A stretch of 64,000 nt of DNA from Eunapius fragilis (Eukaryota; Porifera; Demospongiae; Spongillida; Spongillidae): contig OY811984.1 of the NCBI GenBank assembly GCA_963681505.1, positions 3,826,858 through 3,890,857 of the forward strand, written 5' to 3'. Position numbers and translations under genes: made by a program. The notes under the pieces were generated by a model, which did no database searches, was not told where the DNA came from, and worked only from the letters and a program-made list of their open reading frames with translations. Of the stretch, positions 4,316 to 58,764 are shown piece by piece (position 1 is the stretch's first letter; each line of letters opens with the position of its first letter).

Positions 4316-4615
4316 CACTCACCATATGTACTGTATTTCTACATTGTGTTTACTAAATTGACATATTGCATGTAGACTCATGTACAAAAAGTTCTTATTA
4401 GAACTCGTTTGCCAGAATGCCCTCATCATCAATGGAGGCAACTTTCTGGCAAACGTTACTTTTACAAAAGAAGCACCAGTGCTAAATATATAGTAAAGTG
4501 GGACACGAAATCGCAGAACAAAACATTTTTCAATGAAAAAGCAATTTTCTTTAGTGCATCAAATGCTTGCAGTACAGACCATACTACACAAGCAAGACAC
4601 AAATGATGCCCAAGT

Positions 4616-6099
4616 TCAATTGTGCAATCTGTACCAGATTGATTGATGTAAGGTCATGGGCCAATGTAATGCTGGACGAGTGGGCAATTGATGTGTTGAA
4701 CCAGTCAAATGCGGGGGCCAATCCAAAACTGGACCATGTGAACAATATGCTGCTGGACCAGAGGCGAAATACGGAGCAGGACCTGGGTGCCAATATGCAA
4801 CTGCTCCACGTGGACAATAGGGTTCAAGTAGAGTAGGCCCATGAGGTGTGACTTGTGATGTCACAATGCTACAACATGTAGGTGGCTGTGACCTGGTCAC
4901 GTATGGTGACCTGGACCTGTGTGGCGATCTGGACTGGTGTGGTGACCTGGACCGGTGTGGTGACCTGGACCGGTGTGGTGACCTGGGCCGGTGTGGTGAC
5001 CTGGACCAGTGTGGTGACCTGGACCGGTGTGGTGACCTGGACTGATGTGGTGACCTGGGCTGGTGTGGTGACCTGGACCGGTGTGATGACCTGGACCAGT
5101 GTGGTGACCTGGGCCGGTGTGGTGACCTGGACCAGTGTGGTGACCTGGACCGGTGTGGTGACCTGGACCGGTGTGGTGACCTGGGCTGGTGTGGTGACCT
5201 GGACCGGTGTGGTGACCTGGACTGGTGTGGTGACCTGGACCGGTGTAGTGACCGTGGTGACCTGGACCAGTGTGGTGACCGTGACTTGGACTTGTGTGAC
5301 CTGGACCTATGTGGAGGGGGTGAATGTGTTTGTGAGTGGTCTGATGAATGAGAGCTGCTGCATGATGGTGACTCAGAGCGGAAATGTGAAAAAAAGTTTG
5401 AAGAAAAGTTGCGAGACGGATCTGAAGCGTAGCGTGGGGAGCGTGGATTAGATCGAGGGCCTGAATATAGTGCTGTGAAGGAGCGCTGGGTCCATACTTG
5501 TGTTCTTATTCTTCTCCGAGTCTGGGACGAAGGCGGCGAGTCGGGAAGCTGCACTATTCCACGACTTGTCGTATGTGGAAGCATCGGGAGTACATCAGGA
5601 GCGACGTGCACTGGCAGTATATCGGTAGAGGGTAGCGGCAGATCGGTAGAGGGTAGCGGTAGATCGGTAGAGGGTCGCGGTACATCGGTAGAGGGTGCAC
5701 GTGGCGGTACATCGGTAGAAGGTCGCGGTAAATCGGTAGATGGTGGCGGTACATCGGTAGATGGTCGCGGTACATCGGTGGCGGGTAGCGGTACATCGGC
5801 AGAGGGTCGCGGTAAATCGGTAGAGGGTGCACGTGGCGGAACATTAGAGGATGGCAGTACATTGGCAGAGGGTGGCGGTACATTGGCAGAGGGTGGCAGT
5901 ATATCAGATGCTACCTGCACTGGAGGAACAGCGGATGCCACGTGTACAGGCGGTACATCAGACACTATAGCTACATGCGCTGGCGGTACATTGGGCGATC
6001 CATCAGCTAGTTGCTGGTGTTTGCTACAACACAAAATGACACAACCTTCATTTCAAGTCAGTATAAAAGAGCTTGCATTTACCTGAGCCACGTTCCCAT
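4616..6099 (-). CDS. RS-repeat / Pro-repeat protein, two exons
   Basis: I model exon 1 as 6099-6083 (ATG at 6099-6097) and exon 2 as 6023-4616, joined across a 59-nt intron. The donor is CAG|GTAAAT, the branch-like site is TACTGAC and the acceptor is TTGTAG|C. The frame closes exactly and gives 474 residues. Exon 2 alone has no usable ATG, which is why I chose this start. Residues about 35-140 are seven-residue repeats of the type PSTDVPR. Residues about 240-385 are six-residue repeats of the type SRSPHR, an Arg/Ser domain as in splicing regulators. The C-terminus is unique, Pro/His/Tyr-rich sequence. No RRM, kinase or other globular domain is visible. A role in RNA processing is inference from the RS repeats. 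I know no homologue. Confidence 0.6.
4895..5300 (+). repeat. 18-bp minisatellite coding the RS repeats
   Basis: About 22 copies of an 18-bp unit (GGTGACCTGGACCGGTGT and variants). The unit is a multiple of three, so on the minus strand it reads as an uninterrupted SRSPHR-type array inside the RS-repeat gene. Confidence 0.9.
5615..5900 (+). repeat. 21-bp minisatellite coding the Pro-repeats
   Basis: A 21-bp unit (core ATCGGTAGAGGGTCGCGGTAC) repeats about 13 times with variants. Read on the minus strand it gives the heptad PSTDVPR. It is unrelated in sequence to the 18-bp array but also keeps the frame. Confidence 0.85.
6024..6082 (-). other. Short intron of the RS-repeat gene
   Basis: Reading the minus strand, the intron runs from GTAAATGC at 6082 to GTTGTAG at 6024, 59 nt. 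A TACTGAC branch-like motif lies about 35 nt before the acceptor and a T-rich stretch precedes the AG. The size agrees with the other short introns inferred in this window. Confidence 0.6.
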
Positions 6100-9000
6100 C
6101 GAAAGATCAGTTGTACTAATTAATCACGCGCGCGATTCACTGCTGTTTGCGGCTCACGGCTGTTTGAGGCTGGACATTTAGTTTGATAATTAGAGCGTTC
6201 CGGTATATGGTGTAGAAATCATGGCGGTTAGCCTCATTATCGACACCATAAGTTCAACGATGTGCCTTGCAAGATGCTTACATCTGGTGTTATTATAAAC
6301 ACATGCAGTAGTACCAGCAATCATCTGGCTTAAAGACACACACCTGAAACGATAAATTACGCTTTCCAATAATTATTAAAAACACGCGCCACGTTTTCAT
6401 AGGCATATGAGGTACGGCACGATCGAATAGGTATGAAAGATGCGCGAATTGCACATAGCTGCCAATTTTTCCACATATAAGTTTGATATACAGGAGATGT
6501 GAAAGCTTCAAGTAGTTGGTTTCTGTCGTCCACTAAGCGCGGCCGGCTGTTTTCGGCCTGAAAGGGCTGCCTGTTTTCTATGAATAATCATGACACGTAC
6601 AATGGAGTACCATTGCTAACACGTTCAGCTGCATTGTAGAGTGTGGAAAAACGCATGTTATATAAGAGAGCAAGTAAAAAGGACACCATATGCAAGTACT
6701 CAGGCCTTGCATGGTGTGGCATTTCACTCTGAGAAGGATGCAGCCATGTATCCCAAAGCCCAGCTAATAGTGTAGCTCCTGCAAGCAATGACTACAAATG
6801 ATGGCATTAATGGTTAAAACATAAGAGTAAGATGTTAATGCATATTAATTGTCATTGACCAGTAAATATGATGCTATGCTTATACACGGGTTTTGTAACA
6901 TTTCATGCCCTCAACTGGTGGAAAGGAGTGGTTCACCAGGCCAGCTAATTATTTAAGAGTGTGCTATTAAGCCTTAAAAGTACAATAGCACACCCCAACG
7001 TTTAATGCTCTTGTTAATCTGCACGATTGCAGGTGACAAACTTTCATGTCAATTCTGCAGTATTTGTTGTGCCCTGTTTATAGAGAGGTAGGCACCTTCT
7101 GGAGCTGCATCAAGCAAATGTATTTGCAGTTGTATACAGCTGGTTGTATAATACATCCCTATTGTTATGACAGCACTATTACCCCCTAGATACCTAGCTT
7201 GGTATTAAACATTGTAGCAGAGTGAATGTTCCAGGGACATCAGGGCTTGAAGTCAAAAATCAGCTATAGCCGGATGTTCTGATATGTATATGGCATCTTA
7301 GACCCTAGTAATATCGACAATGGCACAAAACTAGTCAAAGAATAGCTTGACTCTTCCTTACATGCATGTCTGTTAGGGAATATCCACAAGCCTTAGCAAC
7401 CACATCAGTCGGCATGACAACACTGTAATGAAGGTCTCCAGGGTGTACACTGTACCTTGTGCATAACTTAGGGACTAACTACCTGAGAATTAAAGTCTAT
7501 TAAGCGATCAGTGATCAAAATATGAAGCATTCATTGGTGGAATCAGGGATTACAGTGAGTGCAGAACAAGAATCACAGCTGGCCTAGCAATCATTTGGCA
7601 TTAGCTGCGCAACACCCATAAAAATCAATTGCTAAAACAACTTTGCATGCACTTATACATATACATGCATGTAAATAGCACGTAAGGCTTCTACTAAAAA
7701 CTATATCTCCAGGGAGAGGTCAGATGCAAGAAACCTCAAAGGGGGTTGAGATAGCTCTCCATTTTTACTGCCATTTTTCTGGAAGAAAGAAGATACAAGA
7801 ATACACCTATACGTGTTCCACATTGATGGAAAAGCTACTGGGTGCACTGATAGCTTAAATAAAATGATATTTATAAATCAACTCGCTATACATAGTTAGG
7901 CTCACCCTGCATGACAACTAAATCCCCAGTGATGAAGTACATGGTATGGATCAAGCAAGCTTGGACCTCTGCAAGGGTGGAGATGTGTACTATACATTGC
8001 AGGTGTAAAAGTTTCTACTTGATCTTTATCAGGCACTGAATCAGGCACTATGTACTCCAAAGCATTGGAATATCAAAACACCATGCATTTCCATCACTAA
8101 AGTTGTCAACGACCTACCAGGTTTCACAAGTGACACCTTGCACTCACTGTAAACGCTAGTTATCGAATAATACATCTGATTCAACAGCATTGAATCTGAA
8201 TGCCAGTATAAATGCTGCATGACTTTATAACCTTTAGCTCTTAATGCCATTGCCCTAGTTAACATCATCTTCATTTCATGCACTAGGCTTGTAGAAAAGT
8301 GGCAGGATTCAGTCAGTCTCCTTCCGGGTCAGAATAAAGAGACAAATCCACGTATGCATACCATGCATGCATAATTGCATGCACAGAATAACATATGCCT
8401 ATGCATAAGAGATGCAGCTGCAGGTCTACAATGCAGTGTGTGATGAAGCACCTTATCAACATTGTGTCACAAGATGTGGCAGCAATACCACAATCAACGA
8501 AGATTGAACTTTCAGGACTATACCTATCGTTGTGCTTGACACGGCATTAAAACTCTTGTAAAATCAGCGATATTTGACGATCTGCAGCGCCATCATTTCA
8601 GCCGGCCGCACTTAGTTTATACGCTGTCTAAGTAGTCTTAACCTTCCCCTACCTAATCACGCTTAGCTTTTTCCTAGGAAAATTGGCAGTGGTCCACTGT
8701 TCACTTCTTTGTGGAGGATATCCAACTGAGGTACTCGGCTTGCGAGCGCTATAGCTAGCGGGCGCTACAGAGTTTGGCACAAAATTTATATGATGGATAG
8801 ATAAATGGTATGTCTATACTAGAATGGCTGTTACATGTCGGTGCAACAAGTACAGTCCTTATATAGCTCGAAAATACGAAGTGCTTGGTTAGGTCATGAT
8901 CCATGATGTCATCGTTTCAATATTTCGGGGCGTAGGTCTTATTGTCCAACATTTAATGGGCCGTGGGCTGGACACAATTCAGATAATTGGCTAATACGGT

Positions 9001-27460: not shown

Positions 27461-29811
27461 CAGTAGTGGATCGTATATAAGGCGCTCGGCAACATGGCGC
27501 GGATCGTATATAAGGCGTGTGGTTTGATCGCCTATAAGGCGTAATCTACTACTATAAGACATATCATTTTTTAGGGTCACAAACCACACCAATATGAATA
27601 CACATCACATTCATGCATCAGCCCTAGCATGTGTACAGTGCAGGTTCTCTTTAAGTTTGTGTCATTAGCCGTAGTGCGCGTACTGCTTTCTGTTTGTGTT
27701 GAATGGCTGAACTACAACCAAATGTGACAGTGCCAGAACTGCCGCTGCTAGAACTGCCGCTGCCAGCTGCACACGATACTGACCAACTCCTGCAATCATC
27801 TTCAGCAGATACACCAACAAAGCAGGGAACAAGAACGCCATCTGCAAAACTGCCTGTAAGATATCACAGCAGTAAAAAAAGGACAAGACTTTCTTTGAGC
27901 CAGAAGGCTGAAATACTGTCCCTGATCGAGAAAGGTGCAAGTCAGACAGAAGTTGCGATGAAGTCTGGCGAGCGAACCATCTCGCGAGTCAAAAAGAACC
28001 GAGAAGATTTGATGAAGGCATTGCGTCAATCTCGGCAAGGAAAGTTAAAGGCTTTTCGCCAGTCAACAGGTGGTGATAAAATGGATAGGTTGGTTCTAGA
28101 AATGGTTAACCGCACTCGCCAAGCGCACCTTCCCATTAATAGGATGCAATTAAAAACATTCGGGCTTAAAGTCAAACAGCGACTGTTAGAAATGCCAGGC
28201 ACTTCTGTAGCTCTGCGGAAGTGTCTTGAACGATTTTCTGGATCAGACACTTGGGCCAAAAATTTTGTTCAGCGACATAACTTACATTGTGTTATATTGC
28301 ATGGTCAGGCTGGTGATGTGAATGCAGCAGCTATAGCAGATGGACTGGCCCATCTAAAAAACACCATGAAGGATTATGAGATGGAGTGCATATACAATGT
28401 CGATGAGACCGGCCTTTTTTATCGTCTTTTGCCTCGGAAGACATATATCACTGCTATGGAAGAACGCAGATCAGTTAGAGGCACAAAGGGGATGGCTAGT
28501 AAAAATCGTATAACTGCTTATCTATATACCAATGCATCTGGAACACAGAAAGTACCTCTTAGTATAATAGGCAAATCAACAAATCAAAGAACCCTCGCTG
28601 TTTCAAGCTGAAGCCATGTCCTGTAAAATACTTTTCACAGGTGAATGCATGGTCTGATCAAGCCACCTTTTCTTCCTGGTTTCATGAAGTGTTTCTACCA
28701 CATATCCGGTCATGCACTAGCAAACCAGTGCTACTGGTTATGGAAAACTGCAGTGGCCATGGAAATTTAACTGATCCACATGGACAGGTTTCAATAGCGG
28801 AACTCCCACCTAATTGCACATCTAAGCACCAACCCATGGATATGGGTGTTATTGCTGCATGGAAGCAACGGTACCAGTCTAGGCTTCTGACTAAGAGAAC
28901 AGAACTGTTGTTCATCCAAGAAACACTACATCAAGCTGCAACTGCCAAAAAGATGAAAAAAGGAGAAATGAGTTTGGCTGATGGAAAGAATGTCCATGTA
29001 CTGGATGCTGCAGAGCTAGGCAAAACTGCTTGGGAGGAAATATCACAAGAAACCATTGCACACTGCTGGATAAAGGCTGATATTCTTCCCCCCATTCTGC
29101 ATATGAATGCTGTCAATAATAGGGGTAAACCCTCTCCTCACATTAACAAGGATCCTGATGTACTGAAACTGGTGGAGATTGTGAATGCAATGAAAATTTC
29201 CGGTACTGGTGCAGGTGATGACAACCAAGTGGTGGAAGCAGTGCAACTAGTCTCTCAGCTCAGTAGTGACGCACTTCGTCATTGGATGAATATTGAGGAG
29301 GAGGAGGATGTACATGAGGCTATCATTGGAGACCTGTGTGAAGAAATACAAAAAATTGTTTTGGCCGTGGAATGTGCTGATGGTGAAGAAAATGATGAAG
29401 AGACTGTTGAACTGCCGGTGCCTGAAGTGCAAAAACCACCCTTCAGCAAGTATTGCTCTCATTTTGAAGCACTTGAGAACATTGCATACTCTACTGGCCA
29501 ACTGGTTGCTCATCAGCATTTGGTGGAGGCCAGAATGGGACTTATAAATGCCTACATGAGGCAACAATCAACCTAGCTGCAAAGTCTTTTCCACCATGCA
29601 TTGTTATAATCTCTTCTGCTGTTTGGTATTTAAAAAGCTTCAAGTGCACTTACAAACATAACCAAAAACATTGTGGATGATTATGATTAGTGGCTAAGAT
29701 TGCATTAAACCCACAGGTACGACCTTGCAGCGTGAGTATATAAAACATTCGCCAAAAAGGCGATTGTTATAAGGCGCCGATTATGTAACCAGCCTTATAG
29801 ACGATCCACAG
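27461..29811 (+). mobile_element. Pogo/Tigger DNA transposon
   Basis: About 2.35 kb. The left end reads CAGTAGTGGATCG then TATATAAGGC; the right end complements it imperfectly (GTGGATCGTCTATAAGGC). TA flanks both ends (27459-27460 and 29812-29813), as expected for Tc1/mariner-pogo insertion. Inside the left end, GGATCGTATATAAGGCG occurs twice, which suggests a doubled transposase-binding site. It is inserted into the GTAGGTCCAGGGT minisatellite. Confidence 0.85.
27703..29576 (+). pseudogene. Pogo/Tigger transposase, one frameshift, altered catalytic acid
   Basis: The first open part (27703-28611, 302 codons) holds an N-terminal helix-turn-helix near residues 60-110 (LSLSQKAEILSLIEKG) and a CENP-B-type DNA-binding region near 130-210. 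It also holds the first catalytic Asp, at residue 234 (YNVDETGLFY). The second part (28641-29576) continues with NAWSDQATFSSWF, then VMENCSGHG, then LPPNCTSKHQPMDMGVI. A shift of one base near 28590 separates the parts. At the second catalytic position, codon 28743-28745, Glu stands where the family has Asp. The third Asp is at 28839-28841. The C-terminus is acidic. Tigger proteins usually run to about 500-600 residues, so length is normal apart from the break. Confidence 0.9.
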
Positions 29812-33765: not shown

Positions 33766-36700
33766 ATGACGTCTCTACATGGAACTTTCGGACAGTTCAA
33801 TAGAGACACTGACAACTGGGACTGCTACTGTGAACATTTTGAGCTCTACACTGCGGCAAATGAGATTGCATCGGCGGAAAAGAAGCGTGCATTTTTCCTC
33901 ATCATCTGTGGACCGGCAACTTATGAACACATTCGGAGCCTTATCGCTCCTGGCAGAAAGAAGCGGCTTTAGAAAACATGCTCAGGGACAGGTTGGTCTG
34001 TGGACTATGATACAGCAAAACACAACGCTCTCAAGATTGCCCAAGCACAAGAGCTAGCAGACAAGAGTGTGAAAGACCTGAAGCCTGAGTCCACGGTGGA
34101 GTCTGTCCATATCCAACCTGTAAAAGGCAAAGAACTATGCCCGCCAGAACATCCTGTTATCCTTGCAGGAAAAACCATGCATGAAAGTGCTGTTTTGCAA
34201 CTGCTATTTGTCGGGCATGCGGAAAGATGGGCGACATAGCCAGAGCTTGTCAAACTCGCAGGAGGGAAGCTCACACACAACGCCGATCAGAGTCATCCGC
34301 ATATATGACCAAGAACAAGGAAGCCCTTCTAGCAAAATGGAAGGAAGTCAGGAGTCCAATGTGTACACCCTCTTCCATATGAAGCTAAAGCATGATGAAA
34401 CGCTGACAGTAAATGTCAACGCAAGTGGAGCAAAGCTGATTATGGAGGTTGACGCGGGGGCAGCAGTGTTCGTCATAAGTGAACAGACCAACAAGCATTC
34501 GTGGCCCTCGGGCTCCAGACCACTGCTACAGAATACCTCACTTCAGCTGTGGTAGTACTTAGGAGATAAACTGCCAGTCATGGGGCAAATCTCAGTTAAA
34601 GTACGCTACAACAAGCAGGAAGAACGTCTAGATCTAGTGGTGATTGCTGGAAAGGGACCAACCCTAATGGGAAGAAATTGACTTGAATGGTTGGACATCT
34701 TGGGGCAAACGGATCCAGTGAGTCACCACATACACACCATCTGCAACCCAGTAGGCCTGAAGCGAGTGTTGGATAAGCACCAGGATCTGTTCAAGGAGGA
34801 GCTGGGGCTGATAAAGGGAGTAAAGGCAAAGATATATGTAGACAAGGGAGCCACCCCAAAGTTTTTCAAGCCCAGGCCAGTCTCTTTTGCCCTACGCAAC
34901 AAAGTAGTTGCCGAGCATCGAGTACCTCGGACACAAAATTTCAGCAGAAGGGATCCAATCGACAGATGAGAAAAAGAGAGCAATCCTTGATGCTCCGATC
35001 CCACAGAAAATGCAACAGCTCCGGTCTTTCCTTGGTCTCTTAAATTACTACAGGAAATTTCTACCACACCTGTCCAACACTCTGGCCCCCCTCTACTGCC
35101 TTCAAAATAAGCATACACGGTGGCATTGGAATTGCTACCAAGATGAAGCGTTCCGCAACACAAAGCGGCTTCTGACATCAGCGGAAGTTCTCACCCCTTA
35201 CGACCCAAAGGAGAGACTGGTTCTTTCGTGTGACGCCTCCCCATACAGAATAGGAGCAGTCCTTTCCCACCAGTTCAAGGATGGCTCAGAACGCCCCATT
35301 GCTTATGCCTCATGTACGCTGGCACCAGCCGAAAGAAAATACTGCCAACTCGAAAAGGAGGGTTTGGCTATCATGTACAGAGTTAAAAAATTCCACCAGT
35401 ACCTGCTAGGCCGAGTGTTCGTGGTGTTTTCTGACCACAAGCCGCTGCAGTACCTATTCAGCAAAAGCCGACAAGTCCCTCCGATGGCATCCTCTAGAAT
35501 CCAGAGATGGGCCCTCACCCTCGGTGCGTACAACTACAAGATGGTTTTCAGGGCGGGAAAGCTGCAGGCAAATGCCGATGCCCTCAGCAGGCTACCATTG
35601 AGAGGTCCAGAACTCGATGTTCCCACCCCCGGTGACACGGTTCTGATGCTACAAACCCTGGACCAGGACAACAGTGCAGCGTCAGTCGCTTCCTTACAAA
35701 ACTGGATAGATAAGGATCCGCTCATTTCAAGAGTGAGAGAAGCCGTAAGCCAAGGAGATTGGAAAGAAGTACCAAATGGTACGGAGACCTCCCAATACAA
35801 GATGAAAAGCCATGAGCTAAGCGTGCAAGATGATTGCCTCCTCATGGGTAACCGTGTAGTAGTAAACCATGTAGTAGTATCAAGAGCGGGCAGAGAGGCG
35901 ATTATGTGGATCCTATACGAAGGGCATCCAGGAATGTCCCGCATGAAGTCTTTGGCAAGGTGTGGTGTGGTGGCCTGGCGTGGACGCAGATTTGGAGAAC
36001 CTTGTAAGAAGATGCCAACCATGCCAAGCAAACAGAAAGAACCCCCTAGCGGCTCCCCTGCATCTGTGGGAATGGCCAGCAACACCATGGTCTCGACTCC
36101 ACATTGATTTTGCAAGCCCTTTTCTATGAAAGACGTTTATTGTACTAGTGGACGTCCACTCGAAGTGGCCTGAAATTGCCACAGTACCCTCAACCTCTCC
36201 AAACATGCCATCGAGTTCTTACGTCGTGCATTTGCCATGCATGGGCTACCTGAAATGTTGGTGCCTGACAATGGCAGCGCCTTTACAAGCAAGGAGTTTC
36301 AGATTTTTACCTCCCGCAATGGGATCAGACACGTGAAGAATGCAGCCTATCACCCATCAACTAACGGTCTGGCTAAGCGCGCTGTGCAGACTTTTAAGGA
36401 GGCACTAAAAAAGACAAGTGGAGACCTGGAAACTCATCTGGCCCATTTCCTGTTTCAGTACAGGACCACTCCACATTCTACCACGGGATGCTCACCAGCC
36501 GAATTACTGCTAGGTTGTAAGCCTCGCACTCCCCTTGACCAGATCCACACTGCCAGCAGCAACCCACAAACCCTTTCGGCACAGAGGGAATCAGCACAAG
36601 CCAGGGTAACCAAAGTTCCGAGCCGCCAAAAGGAGGCTCATGATAAAAAGGCGAAATCGCGCTCCTTTCAGACCAGGCAAGGGAAACCGAAATGGCTTCC

Positions 36701-42160: not shown

Positions 42161-43537
42161 ATGGCAGAGACAGCACAACTGATCGAGCTACTGAAAAGGC
42201 AGATAGATGCGCAGCAGAAGCAAATGGAGGAAGGAAGAAAACAGACGGAGGCGCTAATCGCTGTGTTTATTGGACACAGGGACAATCGGGAGCAACCTCC
42301 AAAGGCGCCGTTAGTTGTCATTCCCAGTTTTGTCCCGTTCGATCCAACGGCAGAATTGTGGGACGATTACTGGGCGAGGTTCCAAACCTTTGTGGGAGCT
42401 AACTCAATTCCTACGGATAAACAAGCGCAGGTTTTCCTCATGAATCAGTCGAGAGTGAACTACAAGCTTCTGAGTAACCTCGCCTCCCAGCAGTCACCAG
42501 CTAAGGACATCAACGCACTTACGCTGGAAGAGATTGTTGAATATATGAAGGGCCAATTTGACCCAACACGATACGTCATCCGCGAGCGGTTGATTTATTG
42601 GTCCTCCATGTGCCACAAGCCGAGAAAGTCAATTCAAGAGTTGGCCGCTCGAATCCGTCAGGACGCTGTTACATGCGATTTCGCGGCCATTAAAGACACT
42701 CTGGACGAGGCAATGTGCACCCGGTTCATGTGCTCCGTCAGCAATGAAGCCGTCCTGAAGGCACTCTTCAAGTTTAAGGAGGAGGAGCTTACCTTTGCCA
42801 AAGCAATTGCAGTTGCAATGGAGACAAAGGAGGCAGCCAAGGTGGCAAAGGAGACTGTGTATGGGACGAAAGCAAGTGCTGTCTGCAAGGTCGACTCTAG
42901 TAGACCATCCCCTTCACCTGACTCTGGAGAACACCCTATACACCAAGTCCACGGCAAGGAGAGAGACTTCCCAAAAGGGACCTGTCCACGATGTGGGAAG
43001 ACAGACCACAAGTCGGTTGATTGCCCCTTCAAAGAAGCCGTATGTCGGTACTGTCAGAAGCTAGGACACCTAGAAGCGGTCTGTCTGAAGAAGCAGAGAA
43101 AGACCCAACCTGTAAAAACAATCTCTAAGCACCATCGGATACAGACAGTCAAGGTCATCAAGGCAGTTCCCCAACTTCAGCAATCTGTCCAAATCCAGGG
43201 AAAACAGTTCGTTTTTGAGGTTGACACAGGTGCTGGGGACAACTTCTGCTCTAACAACGTATGGTGTGATCTGGGAAAGCCTGCACTGTCACCTGTCACA
43301 GGACGATACGAGGTAGCAAATGGACAACCACTACCCACCTTGGGCACATTCACAACAGTTGTCTCACTTCAGGGTGGGGACAGTTCCCAGGACAAATCAG
43401 TTGATTTCATTGTTACCAAAGTTCCCCGACTCAACCTTCTGGATCGCAGTGCTATAGTCAGGCTTAACGTGAACATACCTGGGTCTACCAGCAGAGAAGC
43501 AAGAAGGTCCCATATCAGTGCGACCCATCTTCGATGA
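42161..43537 (+). CDS. Gag and protease of young gypsy
   Basis: 458 codons from the first ATG after the primer site. Residues about 1-30 are a coiled-coil-like Gln/Glu-rich helix. A gag capsid-like region follows (PTAELWDDYWARFQTF, about residue 65). Two zinc knuckles of form C-x2-C-x4-H-x4-C stand at CPRCGKTDHKSVDC and CRYCQKLGHLEAVC (about residues 282-310). An aspartic protease site FEVDTGAGDNF lies near residue 352. The frame ends about 20 nt into the pol frame, which is open from about 43473. The change of frame here may be mutation or a frameshift signal. Confidence 0.9.
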   Translation: MAETAQLIELLKRQIDAQQKQMEEGRKQTEALIAVFIGHRDNREQPPKAPLVVIPSFVPFDPTAELWDDYWARFQTFVGANSIPTDKQAQVFLMNQSRVNYKLLSNLASQQSPAKDINALTLEEIVEYMKGQFDPTRYVIRERLIYWSSMCHKPRKSIQELAARIRQDAVTCDFAAIKDTLDEAMCTRFMCSVSNEAVLKALFKFKEEELTFAKAIAVAMETKEAAKVAKETVYGTKASAVCKVDSSRPSPSPDSGEHPIHQVHGKERDFPKGTCPRCGKTDHKSVDCPFKEAVCRYCQKLGHLEAVCLKKQRKTQPVKTISKHHRIQTVKVIKAVPQLQQSVQIQGKQFVFEVDTGAGDNFCSNNVWCDLGKPALSPVTGRYEVANGQPLPTLGTFTTVVSLQGGDSSQDKSVDFIVTKVPRLNLLDRSAIVRLNVNIPGSTSREARRSHISATHLR

Positions 43538-44699
43538 TTTGAGACCAGACCCAACCCTACAGGACGCATGCAGGCAACTCTGTCAGGAATTTCCAGAACA
43601 GTTCAAGTCTGAACTCGGGTGTCTCAAGGATTCCCAACTGGAAGTCAAGTTCAAGCCTGAAACAAAACCCATCTTCTGCAAACCACGTGTAGTTCCCTTC
43701 GCCATCCAGGAGGACCTCTGCCAAGCCTACGATGCAGGAATTGCAAGAGGGGTGTGGCTTCCAACCCAGTTCAACGACTATGGAACACCTGTGGTTTCTA
43801 TTCGCGAACCAAGCCTTCCCGGACAACCGGCTAAACTTCGAGTCTGTGGGGATTACTCTGTCACTGTGAACCAGCAACTGGAACCACATCGTCATCCCAT
43901 GCCACTTCCAGAGGATCTGATGCGGAAGTTAGGGGGCGGCTATGGCTTCTCGAAGATTGATTTGGCAGATGCCTACAACCAAATCATGCTGGCACCTGAA
44001 AGTCAGAAGCGATTGGCACTCAGTACCCACCGAGGAGTCCTACTTCAGATGCGACTCCCTTTTGGCATTACTTCGGCACCTGGTTATTTCCAAGAAATTA
44101 TGGGCCAGCTGACCAGTGACCTCCAAGGTGTAGCTGTCTATATAGATGACATTTTGGTCAGTGGGGCCACGGCTTCTGAACACCTGAAAAACCTTCGTTC
44201 TCTGTTCAAACGCCTAGAGATGAAAGGTCTTCATTGCCATCTGGAAAAATGCATCTTTGCCCAGCCTTCGGTCGAGTACTTTGGACATATCCTTTCTCAA
44301 CAGGGGATCGCCAAAGGACCAAAAGTCGATGCTGTCAAGAGGATGCCACCTCCAGAATCTGTTTCAGGTTTCCGCTCTTTTCTTGGTTCGGTGCAATTCT
44401 ATGGCAAGTTTCTGCCCAACCTGGCTACAGTCACTGAGCCACTTCATCGTCTGACTAAGAAAGAGGTTCCATGGAAGTGGGACAGAGAGGAACAAGCAGC
44501 TTTTCAAAAGCTCAAAGACCTGTTATCTGCTGACACCATTCTGGTCCACTTTGACCCTTCCCTTCCCATAGGGATCTCATGCGATGCTTCAGATGTGGGT
44601 TTGGGAGCAGTTCTCTTCCACAGGTACAGTGATGGCAGTGAACGTCCAATTGCCAATACCTCAAAGACCCTCACAAGCACACAGCGTGGATACAGTTAG
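43518..44699 (+). CDS. RT and start of RNase H of young gypsy
   Basis: 393 codons, a different frame from gag. Visible motifs are KIDLADAYNQ, LPFGITSAPGYFQ and the catalytic box VYIDDIL (YIDD codons 44139-44150). Then come the thumb (FRSFLGSVQFYGKFLPNL) and the first RNase H acid, ISCDASDVGLGAVLF. The frame ends at an in-frame TAG at 44697-44699. RNase H sequence continues without interruption after it, so this is a nonsense codon within the domain. The listed start is only where this frame overlaps gag; translation would come from gag. Confidence 0.9.
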   Translation: MRPIFDDLRPDPTLQDACRQLCQEFPEQFKSELGCLKDSQLEVKFKPETKPIFCKPRVVPFAIQEDLCQAYDAGIARGVWLPTQFNDYGTPVVSIREPSLPGQPAKLRVCGDYSVTVNQQLEPHRHPMPLPEDLMRKLGGGYGFSKIDLADAYNQIMLAPESQKRLALSTHRGVLLQMRLPFGITSAPGYFQEIMGQLTSDLQGVAVYIDDILVSGATASEHLKNLRSLFKRLEMKGLHCHLEKCIFAQPSVEYFGHILSQQGIAKGPKVDAVKRMPPPESVSGFRSFLGSVQFYGKFLPNLATVTEPLHRLTKKEVPWKWDREEQAAFQKLKDLLSADTILVHFDPSLPIGISCDASDVGLGAVLFHRYSDGSERPIANTSKTLTSTQRGYS

Positions 44700-45433
44700 A
44701 TAGAGAAGGAAGCACTGGCCATAATCTTCGCCTTGAACAAGTTCCACCAGTTTCTTTATGGTCGTACATTCATTTTGGTCATGGACCACAAGCCACTGAT
44801 TGCTCTTTTTGGACCAACAAAAGCAACTACGGCTCTTGCTGCTAGCAGGCTTGCTTGCTGGGCTCTGATGCTCAGTCAGTACAATTATTCGATTGAGTAT
44901 CGGAAAACGTCAGACCATGGCAACACGGACGCTCTTAGCCGCCTTCCAGTGGGGCCAGATATCAACTTTGATGGGGAGGAAGGTGATGCAACATGGACAC
45001 TGTCTGCAACATCAAGACTGTCAGCCTTCAGCTAAATCCTACTGACCCAGGAACACTGGCTAAGGAGTCAACAAAGGACCCGCTCATCGCCAATGTTATG
45101 CGCTATACGCGAGAAGGATGGCCACCTAAGGACGTATCAAACGGAAGTTTGCAAAACGATACATTGGAGATTTTTTGCAAGTTGTCCGTTTCTCTCTCCA
45201 CAACCCATGGTTGCCTTCTATACAGATCAAAAGTGGTGATTCCCCCAAGTCTCAGGCCCCAAGTACTGCAACTTCTTCATTTGGGACATTTTGGGATGCA
45301 GCGAATGAAGTCATTAGCGCGCACTGCAGTCTATTGGCCAGGGATGGATGCCAAGATAATGGACCTCTGCCATCGGTGTACTACCTGTGCCAAACACCAG
45401 AAAAAGCCACCCAAAGCAGCAAACCACCCCTAG
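44700..45433 (+). pseudogene. RNase H rest and integrase N-terminus of young gypsy
   Basis: After the TAG the frame continues with LAIIFALNKFHQFLYG, VMDHKPLIALF and DALSRLPVG. Near 44990 it shifts by one base, back to the gag frame. The linker then leads to the integrase HHCC zinc module (LLHLGHFGMQRMKSLARTAV, then CHRCTTCAKHQKK). A TAG at 45431-45433 closes this part. Confidence 0.85.
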
Positions 45434-46384
45434 ATGCTTCCAGAGAAACCATGGAGTCGCGTGCATGTCGACCATGCCATCAACTTTCTGGGAAGCAATT
45501 GGCTTATCCTCATTGATGCCTACTCCAAGTATCCTTCCATCCATCCTACCACTTCCACATCCACTAAATCCACCACGGAGTTGTTAGAGCAAGACTTCGC
45601 ACACTTTGGCTATCCACATACCATTGTGTCGGACAATGCAACTTCATTCTTCTCGGAGGAGTTCCAGGCCTGGTGTCGAGAGAGAGGCATCATTCACCTC
45701 ACAGGGGCTCCATACCATCCTGCCACCGATGGTGCTGCTGAACGTCTCGTCCAGACCTTCAAACAGGCTCTCACCAAATCATCATTGCCACCACGAGCTG
45801 CGCTACAGGAGTTCTTAATGCAATATCGTCAGACACCTCGGGCAGAGGGCTATTCTCCAAGTGAATTGCTGAATGGTCGTCTAATCAGGACCAGAATTGA
45901 TATTCTCCTTCCTTCTCCAGCACACACTGCTCAAGGCAAGCAGGCCAGGGAAGCCACTAAGTCTCAAGCTCAAGAGGTCCCTCCAGAGAGAGTCACTCCC
46001 ATATACTCGGTGGGCACACCATGCTATGCTCTCTATTGTTGTCCCAGACGAGAGAAAGAGGCTAGATGGGTTCCTGCTGTAGTAACTAAGGTGTTTGGCA
46101 CCCGCAGTGTCAATGTGAGGGTATTTCCACGTGGTGGCACTTGGCGACGACATATAGAGCAGCTTCGTCCACGTTACAGGACCCAAGAGGATGCAGACCC
46201 TGGAGGCGATGTATCAGCTGCCCCAAGGGAACCATTTCTAGGTTCACCAACCATAGAGGTGGCAACCTCGATGCCTGACACCAAGTACCTCTCCTTCCTA
46301 CACAAGAAGCAAAGATTACGGCTCAACCATGCAAAGGTACCGGAATCCTCGCCTTCCCACTGGTGGAGAGTACACTCGAGATAA
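45434..46384 (+). CDS. Integrase core and C-terminus of young gypsy
   Basis: 316 codons in the gag frame. The rve core has Asp in LIDAYSKYPSIHP, Asp in HTIVSDNATSFFSEEF and Glu in ATDGAAERLVQTFKQAL. The C-terminus has a GPY/F-like module (RWVPAVVTKVFG, then WRRHIEQLRPRY) and no chromodomain. Confidence 0.9.
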   Translation: MLPEKPWSRVHVDHAINFLGSNWLILIDAYSKYPSIHPTTSTSTKSTTELLEQDFAHFGYPHTIVSDNATSFFSEEFQAWCRERGIIHLTGAPYHPATDGAAERLVQTFKQALTKSSLPPRAALQEFLMQYRQTPRAEGYSPSELLNGRLIRTRIDILLPSPAHTAQGKQAREATKSQAQEVPPERVTPIYSVGTPCYALYCCPRREKEARWVPAVVTKVFGTRSVNVRVFPRGGTWRRHIEQLRPRYRTQEDADPGGDVSAAPREPFLGSPTIEVATSMPDTKYLSFLHKKQRLRLNHAKVPESSPSHWWRVHSR

Positions 46385-53031: not shown

Positions 53032-55045
53032 AATGGCGCCAGGCCAAAAAGTGGGCGATCGTGTGAAAGCCAAACCAACTGCCATATTTGGGTGCCGACA
53101 AGCAGGAGACATATATTTGGACCTTGGGCAGCTGAACAAGAAGTCCATGGAACTGTGAAAGACGTTTTGGGTAAAGGCCGGAGTCGGAAACTTCAAGTGA
53201 TTTGGGAGGAATGTAGTAACATTTCAATGGTCTCCCCACGTGTGCTACAGCGAGATGATTATTGCGCTATGTTGCAAGAGCTGGATAACGAAAGTGTAAG
53301 TTCTCAATCTGGAGACGAAGAAGTAGTAACACAAGAAGAAGAGGAACAAGAAGTAGAGCGCTTGGATGAAGTGGCCATCAATGATGAAATTGCACTGCTG
53401 AGGCCTCATGATACTAACTGGGCAGTGACTGAAGGAATTAGTGTGGACTGCTTCCAAGGTACAAATAGCACATTCAGCATGATTTGGAATTTTACAAGCC
53501 CCGTAGCACAAAGAACTGTCCTTGATTATTTCTGTGCTATGTTCCCCATGTCTAACACTACAGAGTGGATTCGGAAAACCAACGTTCTTCTAAACAATAT
53601 GAAACAAAGATCTCTCAGTGAATTTGAGTATTTTCGATTTTGGGGAATGATTTAAGCAATAAGCATAGGAAGAGAAAATAATCGTTGAAGTTACTGGATG
53701 GAGGAGATAGATTGTGACACTAGGAGAGTCTTTCAGCCATCTGCTTTCGGATCATGCTTTGACATGGGAATTAGAAGATTTGAATTCATACTGCGATGCC
53801 TATCATTTGGTGATGTGGACCCCATGGATCGTTGGTCTCCAATAAGACCATTTTTAGCTGCTATTAATGAAAGGCGTCAACAGGTTATTGATCCATTATA
53901 CATATTGGTTGAAGATGAGCTACTGTCACATGGCTTAGTCGGAAACAGGACAGAACCATCGATGGCATTCTACATCTTACAAAAATCATCCGAAAGCCCA
54001 AAAGGGTTGGAACTGAAATAAAGTGTTTAGCTGATGGTGTGGTAGGAATCATGTTGAAGCTAGAGATCTGTGAGGGGAAAGAAGCTGAATGCAGAAAAAA
54101 AGTGGTCACACCATCCATGAGTCAGTGAGCCCTGGCATGTAACTGGGAGAATCTAGTGGCCGATTCAGCCTTTTCGTCTGTGACAACATCAGTAGAGTGC
54201 AAGAAATGTGGCCTTTTTTACTAGAGTTCTAAAATCAGCTTCTAGGGAGTTCCCGAAGAAATATCTAAATGACCAATGTAGATATTGTCAAAGAGGAGAC
54301 ATATTTGTTTGACAACATCAGTAGACAATTGTGATCTTATTGCTTTGGGCTGGAAGGATAAAACCATTAAAACCTTTACTTCCACCTGCAGCACAACACA
54401 CAAGGTCAGCCCAATAAGAAACACAGGTATACAAGTGATGGTACTCTTATCACTACTAAAGTTCAGCGCCCTCAGCTTGTTTCGCAATTTACTACAGTGC
54501 ATAATCTAAAATTGATGTGCACAACCATCTGAGACAAGTGCTACTCAACATAGAAGCAGTTTGGGTAACACACTTGGTGGCATAGGCTAGTTGCAACATT
54601 GTTCGGTGTCATTGTTATTGATGCTATGTTGGCATATAATTTTGAACATAGCACTAATCCTAAAACTGTTAATGAGTTTGCTAATGATCTCTCTTTGTCT
54701 CTTATCTTCAATGACTTCGATGGGTATGTTCCTGAGAATGAACAGAGAAGGATATCAAGTGATTCTAATGCAGAGTTAAGAGAAAGTTTGAGTATGTCAG
54801 TGCCTTGTGCTGTTCCTTTCAATGCCCACCCACTCAAAAGCCTGTTGTCTCTTCCTCTTTATCAAGATCATGTAGGGTCTAAAGTAGGAGCTCGGCGTAA
54901 GTGTTCAGTTTGTTCAGCTAAAGGAAAAAGAAATAATGCACACTATTACTGTGTGAGATGTTCTGACATTTCCAAAAATTCCATTGTTGCGATTTGCGGG
55001 CATCAGTCTGAACGTGGTACTGGCTCCACTGCCAGAATGCATTGA
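53032..55045 (+). pseudogene. PiggyBac-like transposase, broken
   Basis: The N-terminal part uses two frames (ATG at 53032, then HGTVKDVLGKGRSRKLQVIW) and has an acidic stretch (QSGDEEVVTQEEEEQEVERL). The DDE_Tnp_1_7-type core follows: LSEFEYFRFWGMI, RRFEFILRCLSFGDVDPMDR, and YILVEDELLSHG, where the first catalytic Asp is expected. Next come LKCLADGVVGIMLKLEICEG, LVADSAFSSVTTS and ALGWKDKTIKTFTSTCSTTH. The end (54599-55045) has a Cys-rich finger (RRKCSVCSAKG, then HYYCVRCS). Stops near 53655, 54020, 54128 and 54230, and several frame changes, show it is inactive. Confidence 0.8.
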
Positions 55046-55257
55046 GAGGAACTGAACATTAGTACTTTTCTTATAACCAAAGAATTACAAGTGCAGTTTC
55101 ATAAATTCCCTTTGGCACATGCAGCGACACTTGCATATGTACACACTTTGAAACGTGTCTCTGATTGTTTTTCAAATTCCTTGTGAAGTCCTCTCTGGAT
55201 AACCGCATGTTTATATCAAGAACAATTAGCTTGCATAACTGAACAAAAAAGCCCTCC

Positions 55258-55341
55258 CTCCTCGTACATGTACACCACCCTTACGCCATGCATATTGACA
55301 ACTCTTGGTGCAGCGTCGCCTGTGCACGACTTCCAACTAGA
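55258..55341 (-). repeat. Split direct repeat B2
   Basis: 84 bp, partner 55970-56053. Begins CTCCTCGTACATG on the plus strand and ends CCAACTAGA. Two mismatches. Confidence 0.9.
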
Positions 55342-55796
55342 ATTAATAAATCCAACATACAACGCATACCGACAACACCAACCACATAGATTCATGACAT
55401 ACTCATCACACAAACCACACTCAGATCTGGCAGGGACCAACAATCAACAGCTACTTTGGATTTTAACCTAATTTATTTAGAGGTGGTGGGCCCACATCAC
55501 CTCAAGGGAAAAACCTCACTATGTGAGGAAAAAACCTTCTTACACACTGCTCTGGACACCACAACATACACAACACATATGACGAGTTCCTCAGGCGAGG
55601 GTCTTCAGCTTTCATCTGAGTGAAAATGATCATTAAGGAACAACCTGCTTCGCATCAAACATTCAGTGCCACACTGCATACAGAGACATTCCATCCCACC
55701 CATACCCAGCCACCCGGCTGGAACACACAGCAGTCTGCAATCTGCCCATTCGTAAACCAGCCATCCGGCTGAACACAACAACATTCAGACAACGTA

Positions 55797-55958
55797 AAGT
55801 TTACAGACCCGTGCACTGGCAATGTAGACTGATTTCCTTCCTGCTCACATAAACTTAAATACCTCCACCTCCACGTGTACACATCACGTGCTGTACAACC
55901 AATCACATACGGAGGGAGCATAGTTTCTGTCTAATTCACTACGTTCAACCGACAGAAA
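55797..55958 (-). repeat. Split direct repeat A2
   Basis: 162 bp, partner 57437-57598. One clear mismatch seen (CAATGTAGAC against CAACGTAGAC). Confidence 0.9.
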
Positions 55959-55969
55959 AGTGTATCTCT

Positions 55970-56053
55970 CTCCTCGTACATGTACACCACCCTTACGCCA
56001 TGCATATTGACAACTCTTGGTGCAGCGTTGCCTGTGCACGACTGCCAACTAGA
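55970..56053 (-). repeat. Split direct repeat B1
   Basis: 84 bp, follows the stop codon of the YR frame by 17 bp and adjoins A2 with 11 nt between. Confidence 0.9.
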
Positions 56054-56070
56054 TGATCAAAGAAAGCCGG

Positions 56071-57252
56071 CTAGATACCCAAGTTCTTAGATACTTCTAA
56101 GCGGCTCTCTACAGAGTCCTTTACATACCCATCTTTTGCTGACTCCGATTTCCATCTCCCATGCCGCTTGAATAGTCTATCAGGCACCCCAGCATTAGCA
56201 GCTGCCGTGGCACCACCAGCCCGCAGGCTGTGCATCCCAAACAACTTAGGGTCCATTCCAAGGCTACTGATTTTTTCCAATAACAATTCCCTCAGCCTAG
56301 AATAGCTAAGGCTACCACCCTTGCGCAAACATTCTCCAGACTTGGTGTGCATTATTCCCCTGAACAGATAGTCTTGTGAATCATGCACTAGTTGGCCCAT
56401 GGAGAAATACCTCTGCATCATGCTGACGGGGCATGTGGCTGTACCTGTACGAGCAATCACTAAAGATGCACCCTCTCTGTACTGGTCTGTCTTACTGGAT
56501 GTAATTTGTATTACCATGCCCTCAGGGTTAAAGGCCACATCAGCACATCTTAGCTTTAACGATTCCTCGCATCTTAGAAAACCAGCAAATGCTACAAGGC
56601 AGATAGCTAGTAAGCGGACCTCAGTAAGGGAAGGGGATGGCCCAGCTGCGTCTACCATTGCTAGCAACATCTCTGCTGTAACAGGTTCCTTACGCTTTTT
56701 GGGCTTAGCTAACTCCCGCCTAAGACCGCCCAAAGTAGCTTGCACTATAGGGGACCCAGCAATGGATGGTAAACCTGCCATCTGGTGCAACCATGAAACA
56801 GCATGCACTACCTCTTCTACAGCTGATTTTGACTGAACAGACTCACTAAGGTGCTGCAAGTACAGCACCAAATGGATCTCTTGCACAGGAAAGCTTGGGA
56901 CCCCCCGTCTGGCCTCTGCCCATGTCTTCCACCTCTGAAAGGCTCCAAGATATTTCTTTGTGGTAGAGTCAGCCTTACATTTCAGGACAGTAGCTGGCAA
57001 AGCTTTGGCCAGCCGCCTAAGCTCTGGGTCCTCCAGATTTGACAGCAGAGGCCAGACTCCAGAGGAGAATACATCTTCGCACAGCGCTTCCTTTGCTCTG
57101 TCGAAGGCTGCCTTGCCGCCATCTCGTTCCGCTCGCGCCACACTGCTGCTAGCGCTGCTCAGGCGGTCTGCGATCTCTTCGCAGAAGCGGAATTGATTCT
57201 CGTTGCCGCGACGTTTGAAGACGTAGGGTCGCGGCGGATGCCTTTCTCCCAT
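56071..57252 (-). CDS. Tyrosine recombinase with gag-like N-terminal segment
   Basis: 393 codons, uninterrupted. Residues about 9-35 (YVFKRRGNENQFRFCEEIADRL) recall the gag N-terminus of YR retrotransposons. Residues about 85-205 are the core-binding domain (STTKKYLGAFQRWKTWAEAR). The catalytic domain has all expected residues: Arg in AFAGFLRCEESLKLR, Lys in SSKTDQYREG, H-x-x-R in HSLRAGGATAAANAG, then HGRWKSESAKDGY with the nucleophilic Tyr. It looks functional. No RT or RNase H motifs. The start at 57252 overlaps the preceding frame by 94 nt in the -1 register, so expression may use a frameshift or re-initiation. Confidence 0.85.
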   Translation of the reverse strand: MGERHPPRPYVFKRRGNENQFRFCEEIADRLSSASSSVARAERDGGKAAFDRAKEALCEDVFSSGVWPLLSNLEDPELRRLAKALPATVLKCKADSTTKKYLGAFQRWKTWAEARRGVPSFPVQEIHLVLYLQHLSESVQSKSAVEEVVHAVSWLHQMAGLPSIAGSPIVQATLGGLRRELAKPKKRKEPVTAEMLLAMVDAAGPSPSLTEVRLLAICLVAFAGFLRCEESLKLRCADVAFNPEGMVIQITSSKTDQYREGASLVIARTGTATCPVSMMQRYFSMGQLVHDSQDYLFRGIMHTKSGECLRKGGSLSYSRLRELLLEKISSLGMDPKLFGMHSLRAGGATAAANAGVPDRLFKRHGRWKSESAKDGYVKDSVESRLEVSKNLGI

Positions 57253-57431
57253 TTCAGCGCTGAGTCCTCCTGTCCCTCTCGGAGCCGCCGGACTTCTTCC
57301 ATCAGTAGGGTAAACTGGTCGCCCGTGAATGTCGCTGATCCCTCTTTGGATGATCCCTCTTTAGATGTTCCTTCTTTAGACGATCCCGCTCTAGCTGCGA
57401 CATCTCGGTCTGGTGAGTTCTCTCGCGACAT
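57159..57431 (-). CDS. Short leader ORF of the YR element, gag-like coiled coil
   Basis: 90 codons from ATG at 57431. Residues about 15-32 contain three repeats of SSKEG type. Then comes FTLLMEEVRRLREGQEDSAL, a likely coiled coil as in the N-terminus of gag from YR retrotransposons. The sense of the protein continues in the other frame from 57252, since its next expected block (FKRRGNENQF) is at the start of the recombinase frame. The tail beyond about residue 60 is probably out-of-frame text. Confidence 0.55.
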   Translation of the reverse strand: MSRENSPDRDVAARAGSSKEGTSKEGSSKEGSATFTGDQFTLLMEEVRRLREGQEDSALKWEKGIRRDPTSSNVAATRINSASAKRSQTA

Positions 57432-57436
57432 CTTCG

Positions 57437-57598
57437 AAGTTTACAGACCCGTGCACTGGCAACGTAGACTGATTTCCTTCCTGCTCACATAAACTTAAAT
57501 ACCTCCACCTCCACGTGTACACATCACGTGCTGTACAACCAATCACATACGGAGGGAGCATAGTTTCTGTCTAATTCACTACGTTCAACCGACAGAAA
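57437..57598 (-). repeat. Split direct repeat A1
   Basis: 162 bp at the 5' end of the element, 5 bp before the leader ATG. Confidence 0.9.
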
Positions 57599-58030
57599 CG
57601 TGTATAAACGCGGGAACAAACTGATCTTGCTTTATTTGTTTATTTCAACTTTTATGGATAGATTTACAACTTTTACTTTAATTCAGGACAACGGACCTGC
57701 ATTTTCTTAGTTAAATTGTTAATCAGATAAGATACAACATTAATTATTGGTACACAAAAATCAATTAACTGGGACAACTGTGCGAGAACCTTCAATACTG
57801 ATTAGCAACTACGCGCTCAAGTAGTACTCATATGCTATTGAAAATCTCAGCTGTTTTATAACATTAATGTGTTCATTTTCATGCGCGACAAGCAGCACTT
57901 GTACCTTTATAAACATGCATAATTTGTTTGTTCATAACTTTTCTATAAAAGTTACAATACAGCTCAAAATGTGGTTCCCGGGCGGGAACTTATGTTCTCG
58001 CATGGTTCTTGCTGCATGTTCGTACATTAA

Positions 58031-58764
58031 TATGTCTGTCAGCTTAGCTGATTAATGCACTAACTTCATGTCTGTCTGCTCTTGATTATTTTTTGCAATC
58101 CTCTTGTTGACTGTTGTAGGATTAAGCAGGTAAGTTTAATAATTCTTACTGGATGTATTCTTTAATTCACTTGGAATTTGGCCTTTTATAGGCTGCAGTG
58201 ATCAATCTATGTTGAGTGTGCAAGGTACCTAGCAATTATGTGACATAACCATTCATGGTAAAAAAACCTGAACATGTGTTGACTCAGAGCTCCAAATCAT
58301 TTCATCCAAAGGTATTTTGTAACATTCACAAGAGTCCAACACATTGAAGGTTAGAAATACTTATTTTAATACATATGTCCTTATTGGTTTTCATTTTTAG
58401 ATATGGCATGGAATACAAACACTGCCTAGTATGTCTCTCTGTAAGAATACTTGCAGATGCTGCCAGCAAAGTAGCATCAGTGAGAAGAACAGACAAATGA
58501 AGGAGTTACGGGATTTACTGGACCCTGACCAGCATGGTGTTTACGAGGCAGAGCATGAAAGAAGTGGCTTCAAGGGAAGAGCAGTATTCCAATTTCATGG
58601 GGTACCCTGGTGAATGTTCTTAGACAACCAGATAAAAGCTGTGACCACGAGACCTAGAACGATGTTTGTGTATCTTGCGGTTTATGAACACAGTCACTGC
58701 ATTTCAGTTATTGGATTCAAGCGTATGGCATACATGTGTATTACTCACGTGGTACTCTAGGGGG
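58031..58764 (+). other. Flank with possible exon at 58401-58614
   Basis: After the TTAA, GTTGTAG|GATTAAGCAG|GTAAGT near 58117-58137 looks like a tiny exon. An open stretch at 58401-58614 follows TTTTTAG and contains CRCCQQSSISEKNRQMKELRD. I recognise no family. Whether these belong to a host gene is open. Confidence 0.25.

Follow-up and report, generated by a model that had tools for sequence, protein, structure and literature searches.

The window, a 64,000-nucleotide stretch of contig 14 (C14) in a genome of 219 Mb in 24 contigs, carries a compact tyrosine recombinase (YR) element that is best read as the reverse-transcribed copy of a spliced RNA, because the segment that it lacks, including the reverse transcriptase (RT), is bounded exactly by a splice donor and a splice acceptor. 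We consider it very probable that RNA of a full PAT-like retrotransposon is spliced and then retrotransposed, and that this accounts for the compact copies. Most likely, a spliced subgenomic RNA supplies the YR of the full elements and is retrotransposed now and then, in the manner of the SpIREs of human LINE-1.

The compact element of the window

Repeat comparison demonstrated that the window element has the split direct repeats by which Ngaro and PAT elements are recognized (Table 1). The repeat order and near-identity given in an earlier sequence-only reading were both borne out, whereas the repeat lengths of 162 and 84 bp and the span of 55258-57598 given there proved slightly short. The same order recurs in near-full copies of the window subfamily, which rules out that A and B are two unrelated tandem duplications. 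A search of Rfam over positions 54500-58500 returned nothing at gathering scores.

Table 1. Features of the compact element, in window coordinates (a slash in the text marks a joint)
Feature	Position	Strand	Basis and remarks
Whole compact element	55254-57605 (2352 bp)	minus	order A1-ORF-B1-A2-B2, RT absent
A1 repeat, element 5' end	57437-57605 (169 bp)	minus	repeat comparison; 99% identical to A2
A2 repeat, abuts B1 (B-A circle-type junction)	55797-55965 (169 bp)	minus	repeat comparison
B1 repeat	55966-56053 (88 bp)	minus	repeat comparison; 97% identical to B2
B2 repeat, element 3' end (...GAGGGAG)	55254-55341 (88 bp)	minus	repeat comparison
A2-B2 spacer	55342-55796	minus	repeat comparison
Parental exon 1 (A1, leader and gag N-terminus), end ...GAAG	57075-57605	minus	comparison with full copies
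gag N-terminal ORF, 90 aa	57159-57431	minus	ORF list and frame matches; out of frame with YR ORF here
Splice junction	57075 (last base of exon 1), 57074 (first base of YR exon)	minus	full copies have GTAYGG... after and ...TGTAG before
YR exon	56071-57074	minus	PF00589 (matched by a relative too) and catalytic positions
393-codon ORF, part of gag-N fused to YR	56071-57252	minus	ORF list
Flanking bases	55253 / 57606	strandless	joined, they give the empty site of two paralogous places; no target-site duplication

The 393-codon ORF matches PF00589 (Phage_integrase) at 29.1 bits, with a Pfam cut-off of 27.1, and contains R, K, HxxR, H/W and Y at positions that are also kept in most of 26 aligned YR exons and that we take to be the catalytic motif of tyrosine recombinases. 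The proposal of an intact recombinase joined to a gag-like start is therefore sound with regard to the ORF, its domain, its catalytic positions and the junction itself, but the two parts do not share a reading frame in this copy. The 393-codon ORF begins within the gag part and is read in a frame other than that of the gag start at 57431, so the fused gag-YR frame is broken; the matches to gag-N residues 1-69 and to residues 69-119 fall in two different frames. Among six compact copies checked, the gag-YR frame is uninterrupted in L010 (453 aa) and L031 (439 aa) and interrupted in the other four, the window copy among them.

Full relatives carry an intron-like segment at the junction

The sequence-only reading had advised a search for full relatives in which RT separates the same gag and YR parts, and such relatives were found in the same genome. 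They contain 2.6-3.5 kb (measured in 17 copies) between exactly the two bases that are joined in the compact copy, and this extra segment comprises the rest of gag, RT, RNase H and a Dam-like methyltransferase (MT). In the window subfamily, the ends of the segment resemble those of a spliceosomal intron, AAG/GTAYGG...TTCTGTAG/ATG: the gag side runs on as AAG/GTACGG or AAG/GTATGG in L016, L017, L018, L022, L023 and L024, while in L015-L018 and L020 a pyrimidine-rich run with TGTAG at its end leads up to the YR side. Across families whose gag-N identity falls to ~30%, donors are GT in all 22 full-type copies read, and acceptors are AG in all 24 full-type copies read as well as in one more (L053). 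The pyrimidine share at -19 to -3 of the acceptor ranges from 0.59 to 0.88 against an upstream background with a mean of 0.53 and an SD of 0.09, the 0.59 of L042 and L045 lying within one SD of that background. The missing segment is thus bounded by the donor and acceptor of the full relatives to the base, just as in the SpIREs. The earlier suggestion that RT had been lost is correct insofar as the element is an RT-less derivative of a split-repeat YR retrotransposon, but these exact boundaries speak against loss by deletion.

All seven family representatives have the donor codon in frame, and the YR frame opens at the acceptor, which places the spliced gag-YR joint in frame. In L022, a single frame passes the donor into the zinc knuckle and RT, after which come RNase H and a sub-threshold Dam match, and the unspliced frame is therefore gag-RT-RNase H-MT. 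L022 suggested a programmed stop separating RT from RNase H, but this was rejected after tabulating 20 copies: 18 have a sense codon at this position, the stop occurs in L022 alone and L016 is out of register. It should also be noted that YR was not found downstream in L022, a full-type copy on C4, where positions 4373-6525 hold two long ORFs with no significant Pfam match, possibly another element that was inserted or joined.

The same junction recurs in several families

The element query yielded at least 50 matches (40 of 576 candidates scored). The genome-wide search found, at the least, compact full-length copies on C14 (the window), C8 and C4 (two) at 95-100% and on C10 at 77%, and the element query also gave paired matches that end at query position 1819 or start at 1818 and are separated by extra DNA. 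A 121-bp joint probe gave at least 27 matches, seven of which cross the joint, while 14 stop there on the YR side and six on the gag side; these genome-search counts are lower bounds because only candidates were scored. In total, 22 places or more, in at least four families, have the gag part connected directly to the YR exon. They comprise the seven places from the joint probe, L025 and L026, and a further five, one and seven from additional family searches. Thus, the many loci with the same gag-YR junction that the sequence-only reading had called for do exist, and the window copy is far from being the sole one. Eighteen of the 22 places were read as sequence (L009-L014, L025, L026, L031, L050-L052 and L055-L060); L063, L065 and L066 were read in addition, and C14:3513258 is known as a search match only. 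L025 has no intact joint, due to a small deletion there. Two pairs of places share their flanks as segmental duplications (C19:4047413/4082005 and C2:15051673/15122085), so the 22 places represent at most 20 insertions.

Compact junctions at the same point are present in the L031 family (L031, L058) and distant relatives of it (L055, L056), in L051, which is a diverged relative of the window element, and in the L050 and L052/L040 families. Four families (window, L031, L052 and L050) include both compact copies and full copies that match both sides of the joint. The full members are L029 and L032 in the L031 family, L040 and L044 in the L052 family, and the search matches C2:13144842 and C2:13147567 in the L050 family. 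The last of these families has seven compact places versus matches of two full and two YR-side-only copies, an excess that stems partly from segmental duplication (two pairs). Separately, two solo copies of ~0.7 kb consist of A-spacer-B only (L027:1001-1705 and L028:1001-1707), as expected from split-repeat recombination.

A second donor within RT and conservation of both donors

A donor inside RT is joined to the same YR acceptor in two places belonging to two families, L049 and L054, whose sequences cover only the surroundings of the joint. In L049 (C8:6291900-6292700), the RT region ...TTTAAACCAG is joined to the YR exon, and at the joint site the full relatives L040 and L044 read ...TTTAAACCAG/GTGAGTGG and ...CCTTGTAG/ATGTGATG, with identities to L049 of 95-96% on the RT side and 95-97% on the YR side. 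For L054 (C6, L034 family), the full relatives read GGTCCCG/GTGAGTGG and ...CTGCAG/GTGTCTTC. The RT donor in the full relatives is /GTGAGT, and its site, which we take to lie just before RT motif A, reads GTGAGTGGATGT in register in the 19 copies listed; it was confirmed in frame in seven of nine representatives, with L042 and L045 reading GTGAGCTG.

Both donors look conserved at synonymous bases across seven families. Among the seven family representatives, 224 codons encode an invariant amino acid (Met and Trp excluded) and just 11 of them have an invariant third base. Three of these 11 are donor codons: Gly at the gag donor, and Gly and Glu at the RT donor. No Gly codon other than these two at the donors has an invariant third base (2 of 25, counted in an alignment 20 codons shorter), and third-base agreement between pairs of representatives is 40-65% of shared residues. 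The chance of finding those three codons among 11 of 224 is ~9 in 100,000 if codons are independent, which in related sequences is not fully the case.

A simple explanation for RT-less copies would be DNA-level internal deletion of full elements, as for many non-autonomous transposable elements, and such events do occur in this family: L015 is missing the part between gag-N residue 102 and RNase H residue 65, with its acceptor intact. Deletion would hardly produce, in at least four families, a GT/AG junction exact to the base, nor would it link a second donor to that acceptor in two families, and we regard it as a scarcely credible source of the compact copies.

A spliced message as a proposed source of recombinase

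According to the spliced-RNA reading, the full element (A1 - gag/RT/RNase H/MT in one long frame - YR - B1 - A2 - B2) would yield a genomic RNA, and part of this RNA would lose a GT-AG intron of ~2.6-3.5 kb containing the rest of gag, RT, RNase H and MT. With the intron gone, the YR exon would follow in frame on the start codon and N-terminal part of gag, and the resulting subgenomic RNA would encode a gagN-YR protein. The replication repeats are retained in the spliced RNA, so it could be copied in trans by the RT of full elements, with YR inserting the product, and the window element would be one such inserted copy. The second conserved donor in RT would generate a longer gag-partial RT-YR spliced form, which would likewise have been caught as insertions. 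We infer present-day splicing, YR translation from the spliced RNA and the action of RT in trans from the genome sequence.

An alternative is that the splicing is accidental and that YR normally has a start codon of its own or arises by some other route, the compact copies still being copies of spliced RNA. The SpIREs of human LINE-1 offer a model for this, as they come from rare splicing that is described as harmful (PMC5860796). The start codons themselves are mixed evidence. An early Met occurs in the YR exon of five of the 24 full-type copies, at residue 3 in L040, L044 and L048 and at residue 7 in L029 and L032, while the other 19 have none before residue 73. In addition, 11 of the 24, among them L015-L018 from the window subfamily, contain an ATG in frame within the open stretch a short way before the acceptor that could serve an unspliced or YR-only transcript (L037 is out of register in this comparison). 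Consequently, 16 of the 24 would have a candidate start of one sort or the other and only eight have neither, so splicing is far better supported as the origin of the compact copies than as the sole source of YR. The possible YR starts nonetheless occur at no common place, the joint is in frame in every one of the seven family representatives, and both donors keep invariant synonymous bases where third bases of the families otherwise agree so poorly; we therefore think it rather improbable that the splicing is accidental.

Compact copies have more than one origin

In the YR-exon tree of 32 copies, the compact label requires five changes, at least three of which fall on well-supported branches, and the compact copies formed one group in 0 of 200 bootstrap trees. 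Placing the four window-family compact copies in a single clade was rejected both for the YR-to-B2 part (106 log units, AU p 1.2e-30) and for A1-gag (46 log units, AU p 1.7e-6), and with L013 and L014 added the same constraint gave p 5e-8. On this evidence, compact copies have more than one origin, and the streamlined mobile form or parasite envisaged by the sequence-only reading does not hold for the window family as one lineage. L009 and L010, the closest pair of compact copies, are placed with the full copy L015 and are sisters in the YR tree (95/85), yet in the 5' tree they are not, L010 instead joining L015 (88/87). L011 lies beside the full copy L016 in the YR tree at only 91/88, with L011, L012 and L016 unresolved in the 3' tree, while L013 and L014 are an all-compact pair with no full relative in their clade. 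Template switching or gene conversion can mislead trees built from transposable element copies, and recombination could exaggerate the interleaving.

These relationships bear upon two further explanations. In the first, the compact copies would be an established recombinase-only parasite lineage whose own RNA is copied by the RT of full elements and whose spread explains the copy number. Such a lineage would suit the retention of all cis repeats in near-complete compact copies, the uninterrupted gag-YR frames of L010 and L031, the L013/L014 pair and the predominance of compact places in the L050 family. It is unlikely in light of the interleaving of window-family compact copies with full ones, the rejected single clade, the discordance of L009 and L010 between the two trees and the origin of two L050-family pairs through segmental duplication. 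In the second explanation, the compact form would be ancestral, Crypton-like with split repeats, and full elements would have gained an RT-bearing intron. Both forms do coexist in several families, but of the next 20 loci in YR-score order after those already analyzed, a non-random sample, 19 are full-type and one is compact (L031), and L031 as well as the compact copies of the window family branch among full copies in the YR tree. Moreover, the removed segment continues the gag frame via the zinc knuckle to RT as one ORF and is thus unlike an insertion into a gag-YR gene, making an ancestral compact form extremely improbable.

If compact copies derive from spliced RNA, a tentative extension, which we consider possible but doubtful, is that conserved two-donor splicing (gagN-YR and gag-partial RT-YR) may be the regular route to YR in the PAT-like elements of this genome. 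In several families, frequent reverse transcription of the splice products would have left YR-only elements alongside full elements, and part of them would by now be mobilized in trans as a division-of-labor or parasite class.

Insertion at new loci

In line with the sequence-only reading, the compact form was inserted as one piece, judging from its recurrent copies, its ends and an empty site. The 5' end reads ATACAC in 13 of 14 copies with a 5' end listed and the 3' end is ...GAGGGAG in most copies. The 960-bp flanks of L009-L012 yielded no BLAST match to one another. When joined at 55253/57606, the window flanks match C3:1833268 across the joint (91%, query 1-286) as well as C3:5140751 (91%, query 62-288), and both paralogous empty sites run through the joint on the alignment with neither side duplicated. 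Location at new loci accordingly applies to these copies specifically, by differing flanks for L009-L012 and by the empty site for the window copy. An insertion this precise, with no target duplication, would be expected of YR, and DIRS-type elements are described as lacking target duplications (PMC3266345). The flank adjacent to the window insertion has relatives on C3, and beside the insertion lies a 148-aa ORF (54599-55045) with cysteine pairs and only sub-threshold Pfam matches (C1_2, Cript). Among the full copies, L017 (C19) and L018 (C9) look like one duplicated insertion and are counted as one because they share their 5' flank (989/990 bases); their 3' flanks agree at 408/1000 bases ungapped, which a length difference could explain.

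Classification and precedents

The repeats, MT and zinc knuckle identify the parent as PAT-like and not Ngaro. The Dam MT domain (PF05869) scores above the Pfam cut-off in four of six divergent relatives (L030, L034, L038 and L045, 28.2-32.3 bits) and below it in L040 and L044 (25.2 and 25.4 bits) and in L022 of the window subfamily (19.5), whereas the gag zinc knuckle (PF00098) was detected in both gag proteins tested (L022, 26.6 bits; L030, 27.4 bits). A1-B1-A2-B2 split repeats of a full parent were seen in the window subfamily. The Ngaro label of the sequence-only reading must consequently be dropped, since the MT of the full relatives places them on the DIRS/PAT side by published domain criteria (PMC4157794, PMC3783388). 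Ngaro elements have the same repeat order but are defined as MT-less (PMC3783388, PMC8547959). Crypton, a YR-only DNA transposon without long direct repeats (PMC3212892), is ruled out by the long split repeats and RT-bearing relatives. PAT/Pat1 elements of the DIRS order are similar in their A1-B1-A2-B2 repeats, zinc-knuckle gag, RT-RNase H and Dam-like MT (PMC4157794, PMC3266345), and also in having YR in the same direction with internal repeats downstream of it, by implication the echinoderm Pat1 form. They differ in that no spliced YR message or RT-less spliced copy is mentioned in the portions of PMC4157794 and PMC3266345 consulted.

The nearest precedent is the L1 SpIRE, which is also retrotransposed spliced transposable element RNA with exact donor/acceptor joints and alternative splice sites (PMC5860796). 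Splicing there is described as rare and harmful and the copies as dead ends. Here, in contrast, the element is a YR retrotransposon and not a LINE, the intron removes the gag C-terminus, RT, RNase H and MT to leave an in-frame gag-recombinase message, the donors look conserved across families, and the compact copies keep both termini. The SIRE of trypanosomes is likewise a short, non-autonomous companion of a YR retrotransposon, VIPER, but it consists of two terminal VIPER fragments and a short internal region, with no recombinase gene mentioned in the sections of the source used (PMC6681497).

The arrangement hints at how PAT-like elements may make their recombinase, and it predicts two splice junctions in RNA. 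Splicing in LTR elements and retroviruses (copia, env) yields gag or env, whereas the integrating enzyme would be the product in PAT-like elements. The two are alike in that proteins are split between unspliced and spliced RNAs, as in BARE (PMC3735527). The portions of the literature searched gave no explanation for YR expression behind a long gag-pol frame, while this genome keeps inserted copies of what appear to be spliced messages. The open full-text literature searched gave no match for spliced or intron-bearing YR elements or spliced RT-less copies; subscription papers and Repbase notes were outside this scope, and priority is therefore uncertain. RT-bearing elements would thus have a recurrent route by which they spawn recombinase-only ones, and a split-repeat YR element without RT is not necessarily a degenerate deletion or a Crypton-like ancestor.

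Other mobile sequences are apparent by eye in the window. Two adjacent ORFs at 27703-29576 are presumably an interrupted pogo/Tigger-type transposase, and positions 34908-36107 and 42161-46384 carry what we take to be gag, RT and integrase of Ty3/gypsy-type elements. A 472-aa ORF on the minus strand (4616-6034) has proline- and RS-rich repeats.
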